Shown: positions 26,264 to 38,636 of the stretch, one piece after another | Layout: each line of letters begins with the position of its first letter | Numbering within the stretch: position 1 is the stretch's first letter | DNA from: Gammaproteobacteria bacterium | GTDB taxonomy: Bacteria; Pseudomonadota; Gammaproteobacteria; Xanthomonadales; Wenzhouxiangellaceae | Assembly: GCA_009908385.1 (NCBI GenBank) | Contig: JAAAPE010000146.1 | Location: 1-39,343 of the forward strand | Length of the DNA stretch: 39,343 nt | Direction of reading: 5' to 3' | Notes under the pieces: generated by a model | Seen by the model: only the letters and a program-made list of their open reading frames with translations | Told to the model about the DNA's origin: nothing | Databases searched by the model: none | Position numbers and translations under genes: made by a program

Positions 26264-27259
26264 ATGCGCCATTTCCTGACGACTCTCGACTGGTCGCGCG
26301 CCGAACTGCAGGCCCTGCTCGATCGCGCCCGCCTGTGGCGCGACGGCGAGTCGGGCCGGCCGCTTGCGGGCCGTTCCGTCGCCTTGCTGTTTCTCAACCC
26401 CTCGCTGAGGACGCGCGCCTCGTTCGAAGTGGGCATCTACGAACTCGGCGCCCACGCCGTCGTGCTCGAGCCCGGACGCGGCGCCTGGGGCATCGAATTC
26501 GAGCCCGGCGTGGTCATGGACGGCGACGCCGAGGAGCACATCGCCGAGGTGGCGGGCGTGCTCTCGCGTTACTGCGACGCCATCGCGCTGCGGGCCTTTC
26601 CGCTGTTCCGGGACTGGCAGGAAGACCGCCAGGACAAGGTGATCCGGTCGCTGGCGCAGTACGCGCGCGTGCCCGTCATCAACATGGAAACCATCGTGCA
26701 CCCCTGCCAGGAACTGGCCCTGATGCGCACCATCCAGGACCACATCGGCGAGCCCGACGGCAAGACCTTCGTGCTGACCTGGACCTGGCACCCGCGGCCG
26801 CTCAACACCGCCGTGGCCAATTCCGCTCTGTTGATCGCGAGCAAGTTCGGCATGAACATCCGCATGCTGATTCCCGACGAGGCCTATCGCCTCGACGAGC
26901 AGTTCATGGACGCCGCCGACCGCCAGGCCAACGACTCCGGCGGCTCGCTGGAGGTCACCACCGACATCGAGTCCGCCTACTCGGGCGCGGACTTCGTCTA
27001 CGCCAAGAGCTGGGGCGCGCTGCCCTTCTACGGCCGGCCCGAAGAAGAAGCGAAGCTGCGCGAGCCCTTCCGCCACTTCATCGTCGATGAGGCCAAGATG
27101 GCGCTGACCGACAACGCCCGATTCAGCCACTGCCTGCCGCTCAGGCGCAACATCAAGGCCACCGACGGCGTCATGGACGCCGACTACTGCGTCGCCCTCG
27201 ACGAGGCCGAGTATCGGCTGCACTGCCAGAAGGCCTTGTTGGCTGAATTGATTGGTTAG
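26264..27259 (+). CDS. argF': N-acetylornithine carbamoyltransferase
   Basis: 331 residues. It resembles the Xanthomonas acetylornithine transcarbamylase far more than ordinary OTCase: LNPSLRTRASFE (44-55) for carbamoyl phosphate, VMDGDAEEHIAEVAGVL, VPVINMETIVHPCQELA, TWHPRPLNTAVANSAL, AKSWGALPFYG, VDEAKMALTDNARFSHCLPLRRN. The Glu-rich GDAEEH segment fits acetyl- over succinylornithine forms, which to my recollection have Pro there. The product would be N-acetylcitrulline, later used by argE and argG. No arginine leader peptide is seen in the 46-base gap upstream. A repeat begins 5 bases after the stop. Confidence 0.95.
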   Translation: MRHFLTTLDWSRAELQALLDRARLWRDGESGRPLAGRSVALLFLNPSLRTRASFEVGIYELGAHAVVLEPGRGAWGIEFEPGVVMDGDAEEHIAEVAGVLSRYCDAIALRAFPLFRDWQEDRQDKVIRSLAQYARVPVINMETIVHPCQELALMRTIQDHIGEPDGKTFVLTWTWHPRPLNTAVANSALLIASKFGMNIRMLIPDEAYRLDEQFMDAADRQANDSGGSLEVTTDIESAYSGADFVYAKSWGALPFYGRPEEEAKLREPFRHFIVDEAKMALTDNARFSHCLPLRRNIKATDGVMDADYCVALDEAEYRLHCQKALLAELIG

Positions 27260-27264
27260 TTGGC

Positions 27265-27304
27265 TGCTTCGTTGTTTCGTTCTTTCGTTTTTTGGTTTTT
27301 TGGT
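27265..27304 (+). repeat. Left period-8 array (five degenerate octamers)
   Basis: TGCTTCGT, TGTTTCGT, TCTTTCGT, TTTTTGGT, TTTTTGGT. These mirror the exact octamer array at 28236-28275 and start 5 bases after the argF' stop codon. Confidence 0.8.
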
Positions 27305-27375
27305 TCGGCATCTGCCGGGCGTTGCGGGGCGGCTGCGCCGCGGGGCCTATGGCGCTTTCTGCACTCGGCACCGTA

Positions 27376-27407
27376 GTCCCGGACGGAGCGCAACGCCGAT
27401 CCGGGAC
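27376..27407. repeat. 32 bp stem-loop module
   Basis: GTCCCGGA and TCCGGGAC arms; the second of four copies in the window. Confidence 0.85.
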
Positions 27408-27460
27408 CTTTTCGCCGAATGGCCGCGCGTCCTACTGCGCTGACTGCACTCGGCACTGTA

Positions 27461-27492
27461 GTCCCGGACGGAGCGAAGCGCCGATCCGGGAC
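27461..27492. repeat. 32 bp stem-loop module
   Basis: The same arms as at 27376; here the module is locally duplicated, 85 bases from the previous copy. Confidence 0.85.
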
Positions 27493-27627
27493 CTTCTTGC
27501 CGAATGGCAGTGTCCCGGCTTATTGCTCCCTGCCGTAGATCGGGGGTTTTCGCCACCGGCCGCTGTGGCGTCCTCGACAAGTCAACTGCGATTTCGCCCG
27601 GGCCCGCTTCGCGGGGTCTTGCGGCGA

Positions 27628-27657
27628 CTTACTTTTTTCAATTACCAAAAAAGTAAG
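27628..27657. repeat. CTTACTTTTTT stem-loop
   Basis: Perfect 11 bp arms and an 8-base loop; reverse-strand counterpart of 122-151. Confidence 0.85.
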
Positions 27658-27860
27658 CAAAAGGGCTCTTAAAAGATGCCGGAGGGTCCGCAGGTGTCGT
27701 GTCATCCGAAAGCCCAGAAGCCAGACCAGGGTCACTTTCGGCTTGTGCCGAAGTCCCGGCGAATCCAGCCGGGCTCGAACAACGTCGTAACCGGAGTTCT
27801 GGAGCCCCCACTCAGCCCAAGTCCCGAGACATTCAACGGCGTCTTTTAAGAGCGTTTTTG

Positions 27861-27890
27861 GTGACTTTTGTCGCGATTGACAAAAGTTAC
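27861..27890. repeat. Diverged 12 bp stem-loop
   Basis: GTGACTTTTGTC and GACAAAAGTTAC pair at 11 of 12 positions around a 6-base loop. It occupies the place in the inverted half that the CTTACTTTTTT hairpin holds in the other half. Confidence 0.7.
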
Positions 27891-28131
27891 CCGGCGCAAG
27901 AGCCTGCGAAGCAGGCCGGCCGGAACGCCTTTGACTTGTCGAGGGCGCCCACGCGCCCGGCGCCCCATGCCAGCTAGAGACCAAGTCATCGACGAACCAC
28001 CGCAAGACCCCGCGAAGCGGGCCCGGGCGAAACAGACTTTGACTGGTCGAGACCTCCACGGAGTTCGGTGGCGCAAGCCCACGATCCACGGCGGGGAGCA
28101 ACAATCCGATGCCCTGCCATTCGGCGAAAAG

Positions 28132-28163
28132 GTCCCGGATCTGCGCTTCGCTCCGTCCGGGAC
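28132..28163. repeat. 32 bp stem-loop module
   Basis: Fourth copy of the GTCCCGGA/TCCGGGAC module, in the inverted half of the element and oriented as at 287-318. Confidence 0.85.
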
Positions 28164-28235
28164 TACACTGGAGTGAGTTCCATAGTTCACGCGGCGCAGC
28201 CGCCCCGCCACGCCCAGCGGATGCCGAACCTAAAA

Positions 28236-28275
28236 ACGAAGCAACGAAGCAACGAAGCAACGAAGCAACGAAGCA
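28236..28275 (+). repeat. Right period-8 array (five exact ACGAAGCA units)
   Basis: Five perfect tandem copies of ACGAAGCA. The reverse complement TGCTTCGT is the outermost unit of the left array, and both arrays span 40 bases. Confidence 0.9.
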
Positions 28276-28286
28276 AAGAAACCGAC

Positions 28287-28315
28287 TTGTCTTGCCCGCC
28301 AACCTGTGGCAACTT
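28287..28315 (+). promoter_or_regulatory. Candidate promoter of the argG leader
   Basis: -35 TTGTCT (28287-28292), 17 bp spacer, -10-like CAACTT (28310-28315). It is weak by consensus, but the argB/A leader has the same geometry. The block TGTGGCAACTTTCAACCC just before the ATG is shared with it. The predicted start falls at the leader ATG, giving a leaderless message. Confidence 0.45.
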
Positions 28316-28322
28316 TCAACCC

Positions 28323-28430
28323 ATGATGATCGAAGCCACCACCGCCCCCATCGTCGACACCCCGCGTCCCGGCCGGCTGCCGCGACGTCCGCGTCGTCGT
28401 GTCCGACTTTCGGGCCGGGGTGTGCACTAG
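28323..28430 (+). CDS. Arg-rich leader peptide of argG (argGL)
   Basis: 35 codons plus TAG. The peptide begins MMIEATTAPIVDTP, and residues 15-32 hold nine Arg codons, including RRPRRRVR at 21-28. The ORF is followed by a terminator and then argG, as in classical amino-acid attenuators. No Shine-Dalgarno sequence is present; if transcription begins at the ATG this would be a leaderless start. Segment CCCGGCC (28368-28374) can pair with GGCCGGG (28413-28419), which in turn can pair with the terminator 5' arm. I infer that ribosome stalling at the Arg codons would favour argG expression. Translation is unproven. Confidence 0.7.
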   Translation: MMIEATTAPIVDTPRPGRLPRRPRRRVRLSGRGVH

Positions 28431-28478
28431 TCGTCTTCGAGCTTCAAGCAGACGATTCAGCGCGAGAAACCCGGCCCG
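28411..28478 (+). promoter_or_regulatory. Antiterminator pairing of the argG attenuator
   Basis: CGGGCCGGG (28411-28419, near the end of the leader ORF) is perfectly complementary to CCCGGCCCG (28470-28478), which includes most of the terminator 5' arm. The two hairpins are mutually exclusive. A ribosome at the leader stop (28428-28430) would mask the first segment. A ribosome stalled at the CGT run (28392-28400) would leave it free. A small TCGTCT/AGACGA stem (28431-28455) lies between. Confidence 0.7.
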
Positions 28479-28495
28479 GCAGCCGGGTTTTTGTT
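28467..28495 (+). terminator. Intrinsic terminator (attenuator) before argG
   Basis: AAACCCGGC, loop CCGGCA, GCCGGGTTT, then TTGTTTT. Perfect 9 bp arms with a T-rich tail, 46 bases before the argG ATG. A terminator just upstream of a gene on its own strand is the mark of an attenuator. Confidence 0.88.
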
Positions 28496-28540
28496 TTGCA
28501 CGAGACACATCGATGACATCGAATACGGGAAGATCGAATC

Positions 28541-29737
28541 ATGAATGAACGGGTCGTACTCGCCTTTTCCGGCGGACTGGATACCAGCTACTGCGTGCTG
28601 GCCCTCGAGCGGCAGGGTTACGAGGTGCATACCGCCTTCGTCGACACCGGCGGTATCCCCTCCGACCAGAAGGCCTGGATCGCCGAGCGCGCCCGGGCCC
28701 TGGGCGCGGCCGAGCACCACGAGCTCGACGCGAGCGAGCCGCTTTGGGACAAGTTCGTCGTGCCGCTGTTGTGGTCGGGGGCGCGCATGCTCGAGCAGTA
28801 CCCGATGCTCTGCTCGGATCGCTACGTCATCGTCGAACAATGCCTGAAGCTGGCCGACGGGCTCGGCACGACGCACTTCGCGCACGGTTGCACCGGCATG
28901 GGCAATGACCAGCTGCGTTTCGATCAGTCGGTGCGGTCATTGGGCGACTACGTCATCCACGCGCCCATCCGCGACCTGCAGCGCGAGACGAAGAACGTCC
29001 GCGCCCACGAACTCGAGCTCATGGCCGAGGCCGGCGTCGAGGTGCCGCAGTCGTCGAGCCGCTACTCGATCAACGAGAACCTGCTCGGCGTGACCCTCTC
29101 GGGCCAGGAGATTGACGAGTTCGGGGTGCCCGGAGACGACACCTACGTGTGGTGCAAGCCGCGCGAGCAGTGGCCGGCCGGCCGGCTGGAACTGACGATC
29201 GGTTTCCAGGGCGGTCGCGCCGTGAGCCTCGACGACGAATCCATGGACGGGCCGCGGCTGCTGGCCGAACTGAATCGTCGGCTCGGCGCCTACGGCGTCG
29301 GGCGACACGTCTACACCGGGGACGTCTCGATCGGCCTCAAGGGCCGGATCGTGTTCGAATGCCCGGGGATCGACGGCCTGCTGGTGGCCCAGCGTGCGCT
29401 GCGCGAGGCCGTCAATACCAAGCTTCAGAACCAGTTTCACCAGACCATCGCCCAGCGCTGGGCCGAGCTGGTCTATACGGGCTTCTTCTTCGAGCCGCAC
29501 AAGGCCGACCTGGAGGCCTACCTGGAATCGGCCAACGAGTACGTCACCGGCGTGGTGCGCCTGGCCACCGACGGCGGCAGCGTCCAGGCCGTCGCGCTGG
29601 GCTCGCGCTACCTGCTCAAGGACCCCGACGCCGTCTACGCCCAGTCGGCGGCCTGGACGCCGGAAGAAGCCGAGGGTTTCGTCAAGCTCCTCGGCCAGTC
29701 GTCGACCCTGGCGGCCCGCATTCGAAACAAATCGTGA
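28541..29737 (+). CDS. argG: Argininosuccinate synthase
   Basis: 398 residues. It joins citrulline and aspartate using ATP. The PP-loop AFSGGLDTS is at the N-terminus, and AFVDTGGIPSD, CTGMGNDQLRFDQ and SSRYSINENLLG follow as expected. GGAAG lies 8 bases before the ATG. It is preceded by the Arg-leader attenuator and followed by argE after 232 bases, so arginine supply probably controls argG and perhaps argE through the same attenuator. In the acetylated pathway argE removes the acetyl group from N-acetylcitrulline to supply citrulline to this enzyme. Confidence 0.97.
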   Translation: MNERVVLAFSGGLDTSYCVLALERQGYEVHTAFVDTGGIPSDQKAWIAERARALGAAEHHELDASEPLWDKFVVPLLWSGARMLEQYPMLCSDRYVIVEQCLKLADGLGTTHFAHGCTGMGNDQLRFDQSVRSLGDYVIHAPIRDLQRETKNVRAHELELMAEAGVEVPQSSSRYSINENLLGVTLSGQEIDEFGVPGDDTYVWCKPREQWPAGRLELTIGFQGGRAVSLDDESMDGPRLLAELNRRLGAYGVGRHVYTGDVSIGLKGRIVFECPGIDGLLVAQRALREAVNTKLQNQFHQTIAQRWAELVYTGFFFEPHKADLEAYLESANEYVTGVVRLATDGGSVQAVALGSRYLLKDPDAVYAQSAAWTPEEAEGFVKLLGQSSTLAARIRNKS

Positions 29738-29969: not shown

Positions 29970-31040
29970 ATGTCCGAACGAGTTCTAGAACACCTGGGAA
30001 GGCTGATCGAATGCGACAGCCAGAATCCGCCGCGTGCCATCACGCCCGGTGACGGCATGTTCGTGCATGCGCGGACGGTGCTCGAGGCCGCGGGTTTCGA
30101 GGTCGAGATGACTGACTACGGCGAGGGGCACGTCAACCTGTTCGCGGTTCGCGGCGATCCGGCCGTGCTGTTCAACTGCCATCTCGACACCGTGCCCGTA
30201 GGCGAGGGCTGGACAAAGCCGGCCTTGGCGCTCAGCGTCGAGGACGGCAAGGCCTATGGCCGCGGCGCCTGCGATATCAAGGGGGCGGCGGCGGCGCTGC
30301 TGGCGGTCGCCGAATCGACGGACGCGGCCATGGCGATCCTCTTCTCCTCCGACGAGGAGGGAGCGGGCGGTTGCTGCGTGCGCAACTTCCTGGAAGACCC
30401 GGATCACTGCCGCTTCGAGCAGGTCGTGGTCTGCGAGCCGACCGGGTGCCGGGCCGTACTGGCCCATCGCGGTTATCTCTCGGTCAAGGGGCGGTTCCAC
30501 GGCATCGCCGGTCACTCCTCGGAGGGCCGGGCCCTGGCCGACAGCGCGATTCATCGCATGGCGCGCTGGATCGACGCGGCGCTCGACTACTGCGCGGCGG
30601 AAAGGGCCGAAGGGCGACCGACCTGTTTCAACGTCGGCCTGGCCGCCGGCGGCACCAAGTCCAACGTGATCGCCGGCGAGGCCAGCCTGCACTACTCGGC
30701 CCGGCTCGGACCGGGCGCGTCCAACGAGCGCCTGCTGGCCCATCTCTCCTCGCTCGGCGGGGCCGAGGAGCACGCCAACTGGCACGTGCCCTTCTCGGGA
30801 CCGCCGCTGCCGGCCACCGGCCAGGACGATGCGCCGGTGCGGGCCTTCTGCGAGCGACACGGGATCGCCGTCGGCGAACCGGTGGACTTCTGGACCGAAG
30901 CCTCGCTGTTCTCCGCCGCCGGCATGCCGGCGATGGTGCTCGGCCCGGGCAGCATCGCGCAAGCGCATACCGCCGACGAGTGGGTGGCGCTCGAACAGCT
31001 GGAACGCGCGTTCGAGCTCTACGCACGCCTCATCGAATGA
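29970..31040 (+). CDS. argE: Acetylornithine/acetylcitrulline deacetylase (M20 family)
   Basis: 356 residues from the ATG at 29970, which follows AAGGACG; an upstream in-frame start would only add repeat-derived residues. Metal and catalytic motifs: NCHLDTVPVGEGW, GRGACDIKGAAAALL, SSDEEGAGG with the catalytic Glu pair, CEPTGC, and a C-terminal His in AQAHTADEW. Because the carbamoyltransferase here acts on acetylornithine, the probable substrate is N-acetylcitrulline, as shown for Xanthomonas ArgE'; this is inference. The dimerisation domain is at about residues 160-270. Confidence 0.92.
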   Translation: MSERVLEHLGRLIECDSQNPPRAITPGDGMFVHARTVLEAAGFEVEMTDYGEGHVNLFAVRGDPAVLFNCHLDTVPVGEGWTKPALALSVEDGKAYGRGACDIKGAAAALLAVAESTDAAMAILFSSDEEGAGGCCVRNFLEDPDHCRFEQVVVCEPTGCRAVLAHRGYLSVKGRFHGIAGHSSEGRALADSAIHRMARWIDAALDYCAAERAEGRPTCFNVGLAAGGTKSNVIAGEASLHYSARLGPGASNERLLAHLSSLGGAEEHANWHVPFSGPPLPATGQDDAPVRAFCERHGIAVGEPVDFWTEASLFSAAGMPAMVLGPGSIAQAHTADEWVALEQLERAFELYARLIE

Positions 31041-37116: not shown

Positions 37117-37230
37117 ATGAATCACGCATTCGCCCGTCATGCATTCCTGCCGATCACCGCGCTCGTGGCCGTTCGCCCGTGCCCGCGACGCCCGCGACCT
37201 GCGTGGGAAAACGGCTGGGATCCGCGTTAG
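37117..37230 (+). CDS. Arg-rich leader peptide of argB/A (argBAL)
   Basis: 37 codons plus TAG. The peptide begins MNHAFARHAFLPITALVAV and has an Arg cluster VRPCPRRPRP at 19-28, four Arg in eight residues. A segment GGCTGGG (37213-37219, codons Gly33-Trp34) is complementary to the 5' arm of the following terminator. No ribosome-binding site is visible. The upstream block shared with the argG leader ends exactly at the ATG in both cases despite a one-base length difference. This argues that the block is untranslated and that the ATG is the start. Translation is unproven. Confidence 0.7.
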   Translation: MNHAFARHAFLPITALVAVRPCPRRPRPAWENGWDPR

Positions 37231-37272
37231 CGTGAAATAGAAGACTCGATTCGAACGCGACCGAACCCAGCC
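37213..37272 (+). promoter_or_regulatory. Antiterminator pairing of the argB/A attenuator
   Basis: GGCTGGG (37213-37219) is perfectly complementary to CCCAGCC (37266-37272), the inner part of the terminator 5' arm, so the two pairings exclude each other. A further hairpin, CCCGCG/CGTGGG with one G-T pair (37191-37207), overlaps the last Arg codons and could act as the pause or protector stem. Confidence 0.65.
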
Positions 37273-37290
37273 CCGCCGGCTGGGTTTTTT
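37264..37290 (+). terminator. Intrinsic terminator (attenuator) before argB/A
   Basis: AACCCAGCC, loop CCGCC, GGCTGGGTT, then TTTT. Perfect 9 bp arms. It ends 23 bases before the argB/A ATG and lies 33 bases after the leader stop (36 in argG). Confidence 0.88.
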
Positions 37291-37313: not shown

Positions 37314-38636
37314 ATGGACAACGACATGCCCGAGGTAAGAAGAACCGTCATCGAATTGCTCGGCCAGCTTGGGTCGAGCCGGGAGGCGCGGCAGTACCTC
37401 AAGCAGTTCTCGCGCATCGAGGAGTCGCGATTCGCCGTGGTCAAGGTCGGCGGCGCGGTGATGCGCGACCAGCTCGACGAAATGGCCGCCGCGCTGGCCT
37501 TCCTGCAGCGCCTGGGCCTGACGCCCATCGTGTTGCACGGCGCCGGGCCCCAGCTCGACGAGGCGATGGAAGCCGCCGGCGTGCCGATCGAGAAGCGCGA
37601 CGGTCTGCGGGTGACCACCGAGGACGTCATGGCGGTGGCGCGGCCGGTGATCTACCGCGCCAACGCCGCGCTCGTTGACGCGCTGGAAGCCCGCGGCGTT
37701 CGCGCCCGGGGGATCCTGCACGGTGTGTTCGAGGCACAGCTGGCCGACCGCGAGCGGCTCGGCCTGGTCGGCGACATTCAGGCCGTCGAGCTCGAGCCGG
37801 TGCGCAACGCCATCAGCGCGGGCACCCTGCCGGTGGTTGCCTGCCTGGGCGAATCGCCCGCCGGACAGGTCATGAATATCAACGCGGACATTGCCGCGCG
37901 CGAGCTCGTCTGGGCGGTCGAGCCCTACAAGGTGATTTTCCTGACCGGCACCGGCGGGTTGCTCGACGGCAGCGGCCGGGTGATCTCGGCGATCAGCCTG
38001 CGCACCGACTACGACCACCTGCTGGCCCAGGACTGGGTGCACTCGGGCATGCGCCTGAAGCTGCAGCAGATCCGGGAGATGCTCGAGCGCCTGCCCGCGG
38101 AGACCTCTGTGTCGATCACTTCGGCGGAAAATCTCACCCGCGAGCTGTTCACGCATACCGGGGCGGGCACCCTGATCCGGCGCGGCGAGGCGATCGACTG
38201 GTTCGAGACGGTCTCGCCCGAGCACCGCGAGGAACTGCAGATCCTGCTCGAAAGCAGCTTCGGGCGCAGCCTGCGGCCGGACTGGCTGGAGCGGCGTGAG
38301 CTGGTGGGGCTCCTGTGGGCCGAGAGCGGCCGCGCGGCCGCCTTGATTACCGCCGGCGTCGACGGCGTGCCCTACCTCGACAAGTTCGTGGTCACGCCCG
38401 AAGCGCAGGGCGAGGGGCTGGGCGCGGCGCTCTGGCAGGCCCTTCGCCAGCGATTCCCGCGGCTTTACTGGCGCGCCCGCGCCGGCAATCCCATCGCCGG
38501 GTGGTATTTCCAGCAGGCCCACACCACGAGCAGGCACGGCGAGTGGATCGTCTACACCGTCGGCGTCGAGGACTTCGAGTTGCTGGGCCGGCTGACGGCC
38601 GACGCCGAGCGGCGCGATTCCGGCTGGGTCGCTTGA
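37314..38636 (+). CDS. argB/argA: Fused N-acetylglutamate kinase / N-acetylglutamate synthase
   Basis: 440 residues. An amino-acid-kinase domain (about 35-285) has AVVKVGGAVM with K44 and the Gly pair, VLHGAGPQLD, and VMNINADIAARELVWAV. A C-terminal GNAT domain has LITAGVDGVPYLDKFVVTPEAQGEGLGAALW as the acetyl-CoA loop. This is the bifunctional NAGK-NAGS type known in Xanthomonadales and related to the vertebrate synthase. It would make both the first intermediate and its phosphate, and is the expected feedback-inhibition point for arginine. GGAAG precedes the ATG. Upstream is the Arg-leader attenuator. argC and argH are not in the window. Confidence 0.95.
   Translation: MDNDMPEVRRTVIELLGQLGSSREARQYLKQFSRIEESRFAVVKVGGAVMRDQLDEMAAALAFLQRLGLTPIVLHGAGPQLDEAMEAAGVPIEKRDGLRVTTEDVMAVARPVIYRANAALVDALEARGVRARGILHGVFEAQLADRERLGLVGDIQAVELEPVRNAISAGTLPVVACLGESPAGQVMNINADIAARELVWAVEPYKVIFLTGTGGLLDGSGRVISAISLRTDYDHLLAQDWVHSGMRLKLQQIREMLERLPAETSVSITSAENLTRELFTHTGAGTLIRRGEAIDWFETVSPEHREELQILLESSFGRSLRPDWLERRELVGLLWAESGRAAALITAGVDGVPYLDKFVVTPEAQGEGLGAALWQALRQRFPRLYWRARAGNPIAGWYFQQAHTTSRHGEWIVYTVGVEDFELLGRLTADAERRDSGWVA

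Follow-up and report, generated by a model that had tools for sequence, protein, structure and literature searches.

What controls argG, the gene for argininosuccinate synthase, in a Wenzhouxiangella-like bacterium of the order Lysobacterales? ArgR is the usual explanation for how bacteria regulate arginine synthesis, and its N-terminal domain (PF01316) gave no match in this bacterium's own genome, which is 85% complete. The question is raised by contig JAAAPE010000146.1, of which 39,343 nucleotides (nt) were analysed, referred to here as the window. An earlier note, made from the letters alone, had read the DNA in front of argG as a leader-peptide attenuator specific for arginine. We find that this is still the best reading, as the Arg codons, the leader open reading frame (ORF) and the antiterminator and terminator pairings (2:3 and 3:4) recur across the order. 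The argG leader is very probably one member of a family of arginine-specific, ribosome-mediated transcription attenuators of the trp/his type, a prediction built on an ORF, pairings, conservation and a distribution in the sample that are all observed directly.

The argG leader and its pairings

The proposed parts of the leader, and the gene that it would regulate, are the following.

28287-28315, + strand: proposed promoter, with -35 TTGTCT (28287-28292), a 17-nt spacer and -10 CAACTT (28310-28315)
28323-28430, + strand: leader peptide ORF, ATG at 28323 and TAG at 28428-28430, encoding MMIEATTAPIVDTPRPGRLPRRPRRRVRLSGRGVH
28368-28374, + strand: CCCGGCC, proposed as strand 1; the sequence is present, a functional pairing is unsupported
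28383-28406, + strand: putative Arg control codons R21, R22, R24, R25, R26 and R28, from sequence reading and masked folding
28411-28419, + strand: antiterminator strand CGGGCCGGG; 8 nt separate its end from the stop codon of the leader
28467-28497, + strand: intrinsic terminator with T-rich tail, arms 28467-28475 and 28482-28490
28470-28478, + strand: antiterminator partner CCCGGCCCG, overlapping the 5' terminator arm
28541-29737, + strand: argG, argininosuccinate synthase, the regulated gene (Pfam; NCBIfam)

The ORF has 35 codons, and its nine Arg codons (five CGT, two CGA and two CGG) all fall within codons 15-32, which confirms the earlier count of nine in 18. The terminator that had been described before argG is likewise found at 28467-28490, where AAACCCGGC, the loop CCGGCA and GCCGGGTTT form a hairpin of 9 base pairs (bp) at -14.8 kcal/mol followed by a T tract; the program listing of the window also has a shorter version of this hairpin. 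The alternative pairing stood up equally well: the antiterminator strand and its partner are exact complements over 9 bp, and the best antiterminator duplex in the window, at -23.7 kcal/mol, was matched by none of 200 dinucleotide shuffles (mean -13.4).

The earlier note had further proposed that CCCGGCC sequesters the antiterminator strand in a 1:2 arm. The sequence is there, but pairing between the upstream leader and the antiterminator strand is at chance in the window (-20.0 kcal/mol against a shuffle mean of -18.2, equalled by 17% of 500 shuffles) and reached p<=0.05 in only two of 78 homologous loci. We have rejected the 1:2 protector arm as a conserved part on these numbers, and therefore regard the leader as a two-state switch. 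Such a hairpin is present in trp and his and is not required in all attenuators. Among the features that define the trp/his type, the leader ORF before a terminator, the antiterminator pairing and the ribosome geometry are found here, and the 1:2 hairpin is not.

How the two states could be chosen was modelled by masked folding, in which only the RNA left free by the ribosome is folded; the ribosome is assumed to cover about 12 nt beyond the start of the A-site codon. With the A site at R22, R24 or R26 the antiterminator forms (-44.6, -39.0 and -37.4 kcal/mol, respectively), and with the ribosome at the stop codon the terminator forms. The effective control codons would be R21-R26, because a stall at R28 or R32 would mask part of the antiterminator strand. 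For transcription start, stalling, read-through and the response to arginine we infer the following course. Transcription would begin at the leader ATG or no more than a few bases away from it, with a ribosome following RNA polymerase and translating the Arg-rich leader. When charged Arg transfer RNA (tRNA) is ample, the ribosome at the stop codon would cover 28411-28419, the hairpin at 28467-28490 would form and transcription would stop after about 170 nt. When Arg-tRNA is short, above all the isoacceptor for CGU, CGC and CGA, the ribosome would stall in the run at 28383-28406 and free 28411-28419 to pair with 28470-28478, the terminator would be blocked and argG would be transcribed.

The proposed -10 box ends 7 nt before the leader ATG, and with this spacing the leader mRNA of the window would be leaderless or nearly so. 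The same position recurs elsewhere. In 38 leaders of the families f1, f5, f7, f8 and f10 (our labels for families of the sample) the -10 score is highest 7 nt ahead of the start codon, with a mean of -0.82 there against -2.89 for the best of 200 shuffle sets; the peak lies at 6 nt and is weaker in f2-f4, lies at 25 nt in f9, and does not exceed the shuffles in f12. With leader start codons picked by rule, a tetramer resembling the Shine-Dalgarno sequence precedes one of the 38 leader starts of the first group and 23 of its 38 starts of argF', the N-acetylornithine carbamoyltransferase gene; the corresponding figures are 0/14 and 11/14 in f9, 4/29 and 13/29 in f2-f4, and 0/20 and 2/20 in f12. 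Many leaders look leaderless, for which the leaderless trpL of Sinorhizobium is a precedent.

The choice of Arg codons is also distinctive. CGA accounts for 135 of 476 leader Arg codons against 103 of 1520 in 74 argF' genes, and CGG plus AGR for 37 of 476 against 427 of 1520, in a comparison in which the 74 genes are those of the named loci and the window, the genome sets differ, the loci are related and p-values are non-independent. Leader Arg codons thus prefer CGA and CGT and, as most bacteria read CGU, CGC and CGA with a single tRNA (ICG), the preference suggests this isoacceptor as the signal.

Conservation before argF' and argG

The earlier note had placed the attenuator before argG. It is present there, but it is not confined to that gene: elsewhere it stands before argF', and in the window also before argBA. 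In most named loci argF' and argG are adjacent, and the leader, where found, precedes argF'. A carbamoyltransferase match at E<=1e-40 was obtained in 143 of 160 genomes of the order, a count that includes eight f11 matches of only 35-42% identity. We fetched 120 argF' upstream regions, a set that omits some f2, f12 and partial matches, in which L147 and L186 are shortened by contig ends and from which the eight f11 regions were kept for separate handling. A terminator is present in 104 of the 120; the 16 that lack it comprise 12 f1 regions, two f4 regions, of which one is truncated, and a single region each of f6 and f12. Taking as leader an ORF that ends 15-60 nt before the terminator, at least three Arg in 12 codons were found in 101 of 103 scorable regions, and at least four in 87 of the 103 as compared with 10% of 10,300 dinucleotide shuffles. 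As a control on real sequence, only three of 27 other terminators in 80 named loci and the window have at least four Arg, two of these three being argBA leaders, whereas among the 46 target terminators of these loci 34 do.

All loci were located by their position relative to argF', argG or argBA. A DNA pattern that covers only the Arg run was dropped as a locator, since it is unspecific: it matched in 33 of 61 genomes, and a backward-read control matched about equally often. Arg-run ORFs also stand before argF' in metagenome-assembled genomes labelled Woeseiaceae, Chromatiales or Gammaproteobacteria (L051, L054, L056, L059), so that the family may extend beyond the order. In the Nannocystis loci L042, L043 and L048 no small ORF was found, and L047 has an Arg-rich ORF of ambiguous meaning.

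The pairing strands provide a second line of evidence. In a zone around the leader stop codon, which opens 30 nt ahead of that codon and closes 9 nt beyond its first base, GCTGGG is found in all 18 f2 loci with a CCCAGC terminator arm, and GCCGGG in all 19 f12 loci with a CCCGGC arm; the other three loci of f2 and f12 (L175, L215, L217) have no exact hexamer match. Over the 94 loci of all families with either arm, the matching hexamer occurs in 55 and the opposite one in 12. Judged by these hexamers, antiterminator and terminator strands change jointly between f2 and f12. The comparison across relatives for which the earlier note had asked largely bears out its reading, since Arg codons, leader ORF and the 2:3 and 3:4 pairings recur in the order.

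Tested against shuffles, the antiterminator duplex was better in 70 of 105 loci (p<=0.05): 18/20 in f12, 18/23 in f8, 13/20 in f2, 6/14 in f9, 5/9 in f1, 3/3 in f5, 2/2 in f7 and 1/1 in f10. With the terminator arm alone as target most of the f9 class is missed; here a strand with CTCTTTGG pairs, in most of the 14 loci, with the terminator loop, and a wider target that includes the loop and a longer leader stretch made all 14 significant. In L148-L152, L155, L159 and L161 we observe a (C)TCTTTGG strand that pairs with the loop rather than with the 5' arm alone. Relative to the stop codon, the antiterminator strand ends at a median of +1 in f2 and f12, and at medians of -9 to +12 in the other families with at least three loci (78 loci in all).

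A leader directly before argG was found in four genomes: the window, G011 (L002, Wenzhouxiangella sp. 15190), G024 and G027. Their lengths of 108, 108, 96 and 105 nt differ by whole codons only, the Arg codons show synonymous changes (CGG/CGC, CGT/CGC, CGA/CGT/CGC), the N-terminal part is variable, and the duplex is significant in all four. Conservation in close relatives, whose lack the earlier note had said would refute the attenuator, is present in three of them for leader, Arg codons and pairing, but not in W. sediminis (L001). Among the other f1 genomes fetched, two of 20 have a terminator of attenuator kind before argG, both with a leader. The attenuator is, on this distribution, labile within the Wenzhouxiangella family, where the leader is often absent. 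In L107 and L109 we observe AGCCCAGC/GCTGGGTT terminators before argF' with no Arg leader ORF in front, which are maybe decayed attenuators.

This patchiness invites the explanation that the hairpin before argG is a constitutive terminator of the upstream unit or an unused relic, the argF'/argG leader being in decay in Wenzhouxiangella, in keeping with its absence from W. sediminis and many f1 genomes. We consider this highly improbable, as strands, leader frame and Arg codons are all intact in four genomes and a second intact copy lies before argBA in the same window. A different alternative is that the hairpin serves another sensor, be it a protein, a small RNA, Rho or a riboswitch, and that the Arg-rich ORF is incidental. 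A GC-rich genome does make Arg-rich ORFs by chance, and the single-window fold reaches a z of only -2.36. This alternative is nevertheless very unlikely: the frame of the leader ORF is conserved, in most families the antiterminator strand sits close to the stop codon of the leader, and neither the window nor any of 14 loci has an Rfam match at gathering score. The best sub-threshold match, rnk_pseudo (24.7 against 55 bits), covers the hairpins only and was discarded.

Several observations weigh against an arginine attenuator and should be set beside the evidence above. The promoter of the window is a weak match and is absent from the consensus promoter scan listing. The fold of the whole 255 nt is only moderately unusual, being equalled by five of 200 shuffles, and GC-rich DNA readily yields Arg-rich ORFs; taken singly, f2 and f12 leaders have an Arg count that is reached in 5-32% of their own shuffles, and an f11 genome with ArgR and no terminator (G063) has an ORF with five Arg in 12 codons. 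The duplex is no better than shuffles in f3 (0/3) and f4 (0/6), and the wider target that suits f9 lowers the overall total to 64 of 101, f2 from 13 to 7 of 20 and f12 from 18 to 11 of 20. In W. sediminis, which has the closest argG in the sample, there is no such leader or terminator within 450 nt before argF' or argG. Neither a terminator nor a leader of attenuator kind precedes argG in 18 of 22 f1 regions (the 20 fetched, the window and L002; L236 has only 97 nt and L235 only 315 nt), and only nine of 23 f1 argF' upstream regions have a leader, one of them (L117) doubtful. The case for arginine-specific attenuation draws its strength from conservation.

The argBA leader and neighbouring genes

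Other arginine genes of the window, and the leader before argBA, are as follows.

26264-27259, + strand: argF', N-acetylornithine carbamoyltransferase (NCBIfam NF003384, above cut-off)
29970-31040, + strand: argE', acetylornithine deacetylase (NCBIfam NF006439, above cut-off)
37117-37230, + strand: second Arg leader ORF MNHAFARHAFLPITALVAVRPCPRRPRPAWENGWDPR, with homologues in L001 (W. sediminis) and G010
37264-37290, + strand: second terminator AACCCAGCC/GGCTGGGTT with T tract, hairpin at 37264-37286
37314-38636, + strand: argBA, acetylglutamate kinase fused to an N-acetyltransferase domain (Pfam; NCBIfam NF003387, above cut-off)

The argBA leader carries an antiterminator strand, GGCTGGG, in its end and a similar TGTGGCACATT motif before its ATG. 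An attenuator of this kind was found in three of 23 argBA upstream regions, those of the window, L001/G003 and G010. In the window argBA starts about 9 kb after argG and in G003 about 5 kb after it; in G010 no close argG was found. We suggest from these positions that the argBA attenuator may arise where the operon has been split. G025, where 9 kb separate argBA and argG and no terminator of this kind is present, counts against a strict rule of this sort. One relative has a second argBA-like gene, 41% identical (G022:C1:22815-24044).

The nearest argG in the sample is that of W. sediminis, with 92% identity to argG of the window, for which the best NCBIfam match is the argininosuccinate synthase model PRK04527 at 540 bits, below its cut-off of 603. 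By its position, argE' possibly shares a transcription unit with argG. Upstream scans gave no terminator of attenuator kind in the 450 nt before argF' of the window. According to Pfam and NCBIfam, the genes downstream of these leaders (argG, argF' and argBA) all make arginine, the amino acid that would be sensed.

The gap of 1.3 kb between argF' and argG is filled by a nested, imperfect inverted repeat of about 1 kb (27248-28276), with arms at 27260-27363/28169-28272 and 27454-27624/28000-28170 that are 81-84% complementary. There are 8-bp tandem repeats close to both ends of it. The repeat is apparently non-coding and lies immediately upstream of the leader promoter.

Leader peptides, ArgR and known arginine sensors

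The leaders fall into three classes. The first, to which the window belongs together with f1, f5, f7, f8 and f10, has Arg runs in variable peptides. The second, f9, has VVVRRRRP...MELFG or VVVRRNRRR and similar sequences. The third has a conserved MTSRARR peptide, present in 20/20 regions of f2, 21/21 of f12 (a family that contains Luteibacter), 3/3 of f3 and 7/8 of f4, the eighth f4 region being truncated, and in none of the other 68 regions. The full motif, A-x-x-A-[AS]-G-M-T-S-R-A-R-R, extended to AxxA[AS]GMTSRARRP, is near-invariant in these four families (loci L162-L185, L187-L191 and L199-L220). A DNA pattern for this class matched exactly once per genome in 57 of 60 f2 genomes, its position before argF' being confirmed in those genomes that are also among the fetched upstream regions, and a reversed control gave no match. 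In 49 distinct sequences, selected by the motif itself with flanks that were not part of the selection, A at -6 and -3 and M-T-S-R-A-R-R are fixed, and G at -1 occurs in 47. Third-position conservation is 0.55 to 0.73 for T, both first R, the following A and the G at -1, and other codons are nearly fixed: TCG in 48 of the 49, CGA for the last Arg in 46 and GCC at -6 in 47. In our reading, the peptide is under more selection than codon sensing would require, and the codons are under some selection too.

Such a peptide raises the question whether the nascent chain is the sensor, so that the leader peptide, perhaps together with free arginine, arrests the ribosome and this arrest, not hungry codons, sets the fold. 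The near-invariant peptide of f2, f3, f4 and f12, in which several third codon positions vary, and the single occurrence of its pattern in nearly all f2 genomes would fit. The window class and f1, f5, f7 and f8, on the other hand, keep their Arg runs in otherwise divergent peptides, the bias towards CGA and CGT fits sensing at the level of codons, and the nearly fixed TCG and CGA are unexplained by peptide selection alone. We regard nascent-chain sensing as an unlikely account of the leaders as a whole, and favor ribosome stalling at Arg codons.

The ArgR domain was found in eight of 160 genomes of the order, all of them in f11. These are the genomes in which the carbamoyltransferase match is 35-42% identical, and an attenuator-type terminator before argF was found in none of the eight. 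Attenuator and ArgR never overlap in the sample, and the attenuator appears to stand in for ArgR in the order. A bolder proposal, possible in our view though doubtful, is that nearly the whole of the Lysobacterales replaced ArgR in this way and that the sensor in f2, f3, f4 and f12 is an arginine-dependent nascent arrest peptide. If this were true, bacteria would have an arrest peptide that senses arginine, is coupled to a transcription terminator and derives from an Arg-codon attenuator like that of the window.

Attenuators of the trp, his, thr, leu, ilv and phe genes are known in Proteobacteria. The present leaders resemble them in having a short ORF rich in codons for their own amino acid, a terminator before the first gene, a mutually exclusive antiterminator and a stop codon at which a terminating ribosome covers the antiterminator strand. 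They differ in being specific for Arg, in that the 1:2 protector hairpin is unsupported, and in that many have no Shine-Dalgarno-like motif and a -10 box 7 nt before the start. The ArgR/AhrC regulon has the same kind of target genes and the same purpose but works through a protein repressor. The fungal arginine attenuator peptide (arg-2/CPA1) is also a short leader peptide that regulates arginine synthesis; it is eukaryotic and translational, and acts by nascent-chain arrest in response to arginine, with no terminator.

The nearest published Arg-codon sensor that we found is orf34 of Salmonella speF, where, in the passages of that report at hand, a pair of adjacent Arg codons, likewise in a gammaproteobacterium, serves to sense arginine and controls ornithine decarboxylase, and with it polyamine synthesis, through Rho and RNase G (PMC6386406). 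The present leader would by contrast act through an intrinsic terminator on arginine biosynthesis genes. Compared by reading of the sequences, the HIRRT core of orf34 (DUF2618) is absent from the window leader, and the downstream gene is argG. For carA of Pseudomonas, a gene shared by arginine and pyrimidine synthesis, a leader peptide with attenuation has been proposed; in the passages of that paper at hand attenuation serves pyrimidine control and control by arginine is transcriptional, and those passages describe no Arg-codon leader (PMC4997734). In searches of the open-licence PMC literature we met no earlier description of an Arg leader-peptide attenuator acting on arginine biosynthesis.

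To our knowledge, textbooks do not name arginine among the amino acids that have leader-peptide attenuators. Arg-codon leaders stand before argF', argG or argBA in most of the sampled Lysobacterales genomes and, if confirmed, the attenuator would be the missing arginine regulator of this group. The attenuator reading predicts that a single isoacceptor, the one for CGU, CGC and CGA, is the real signal. The run type, the VVVRRRRP type and the conserved-peptide type together form a natural series in which it could be asked when codon sensing becomes nascent-peptide sensing.

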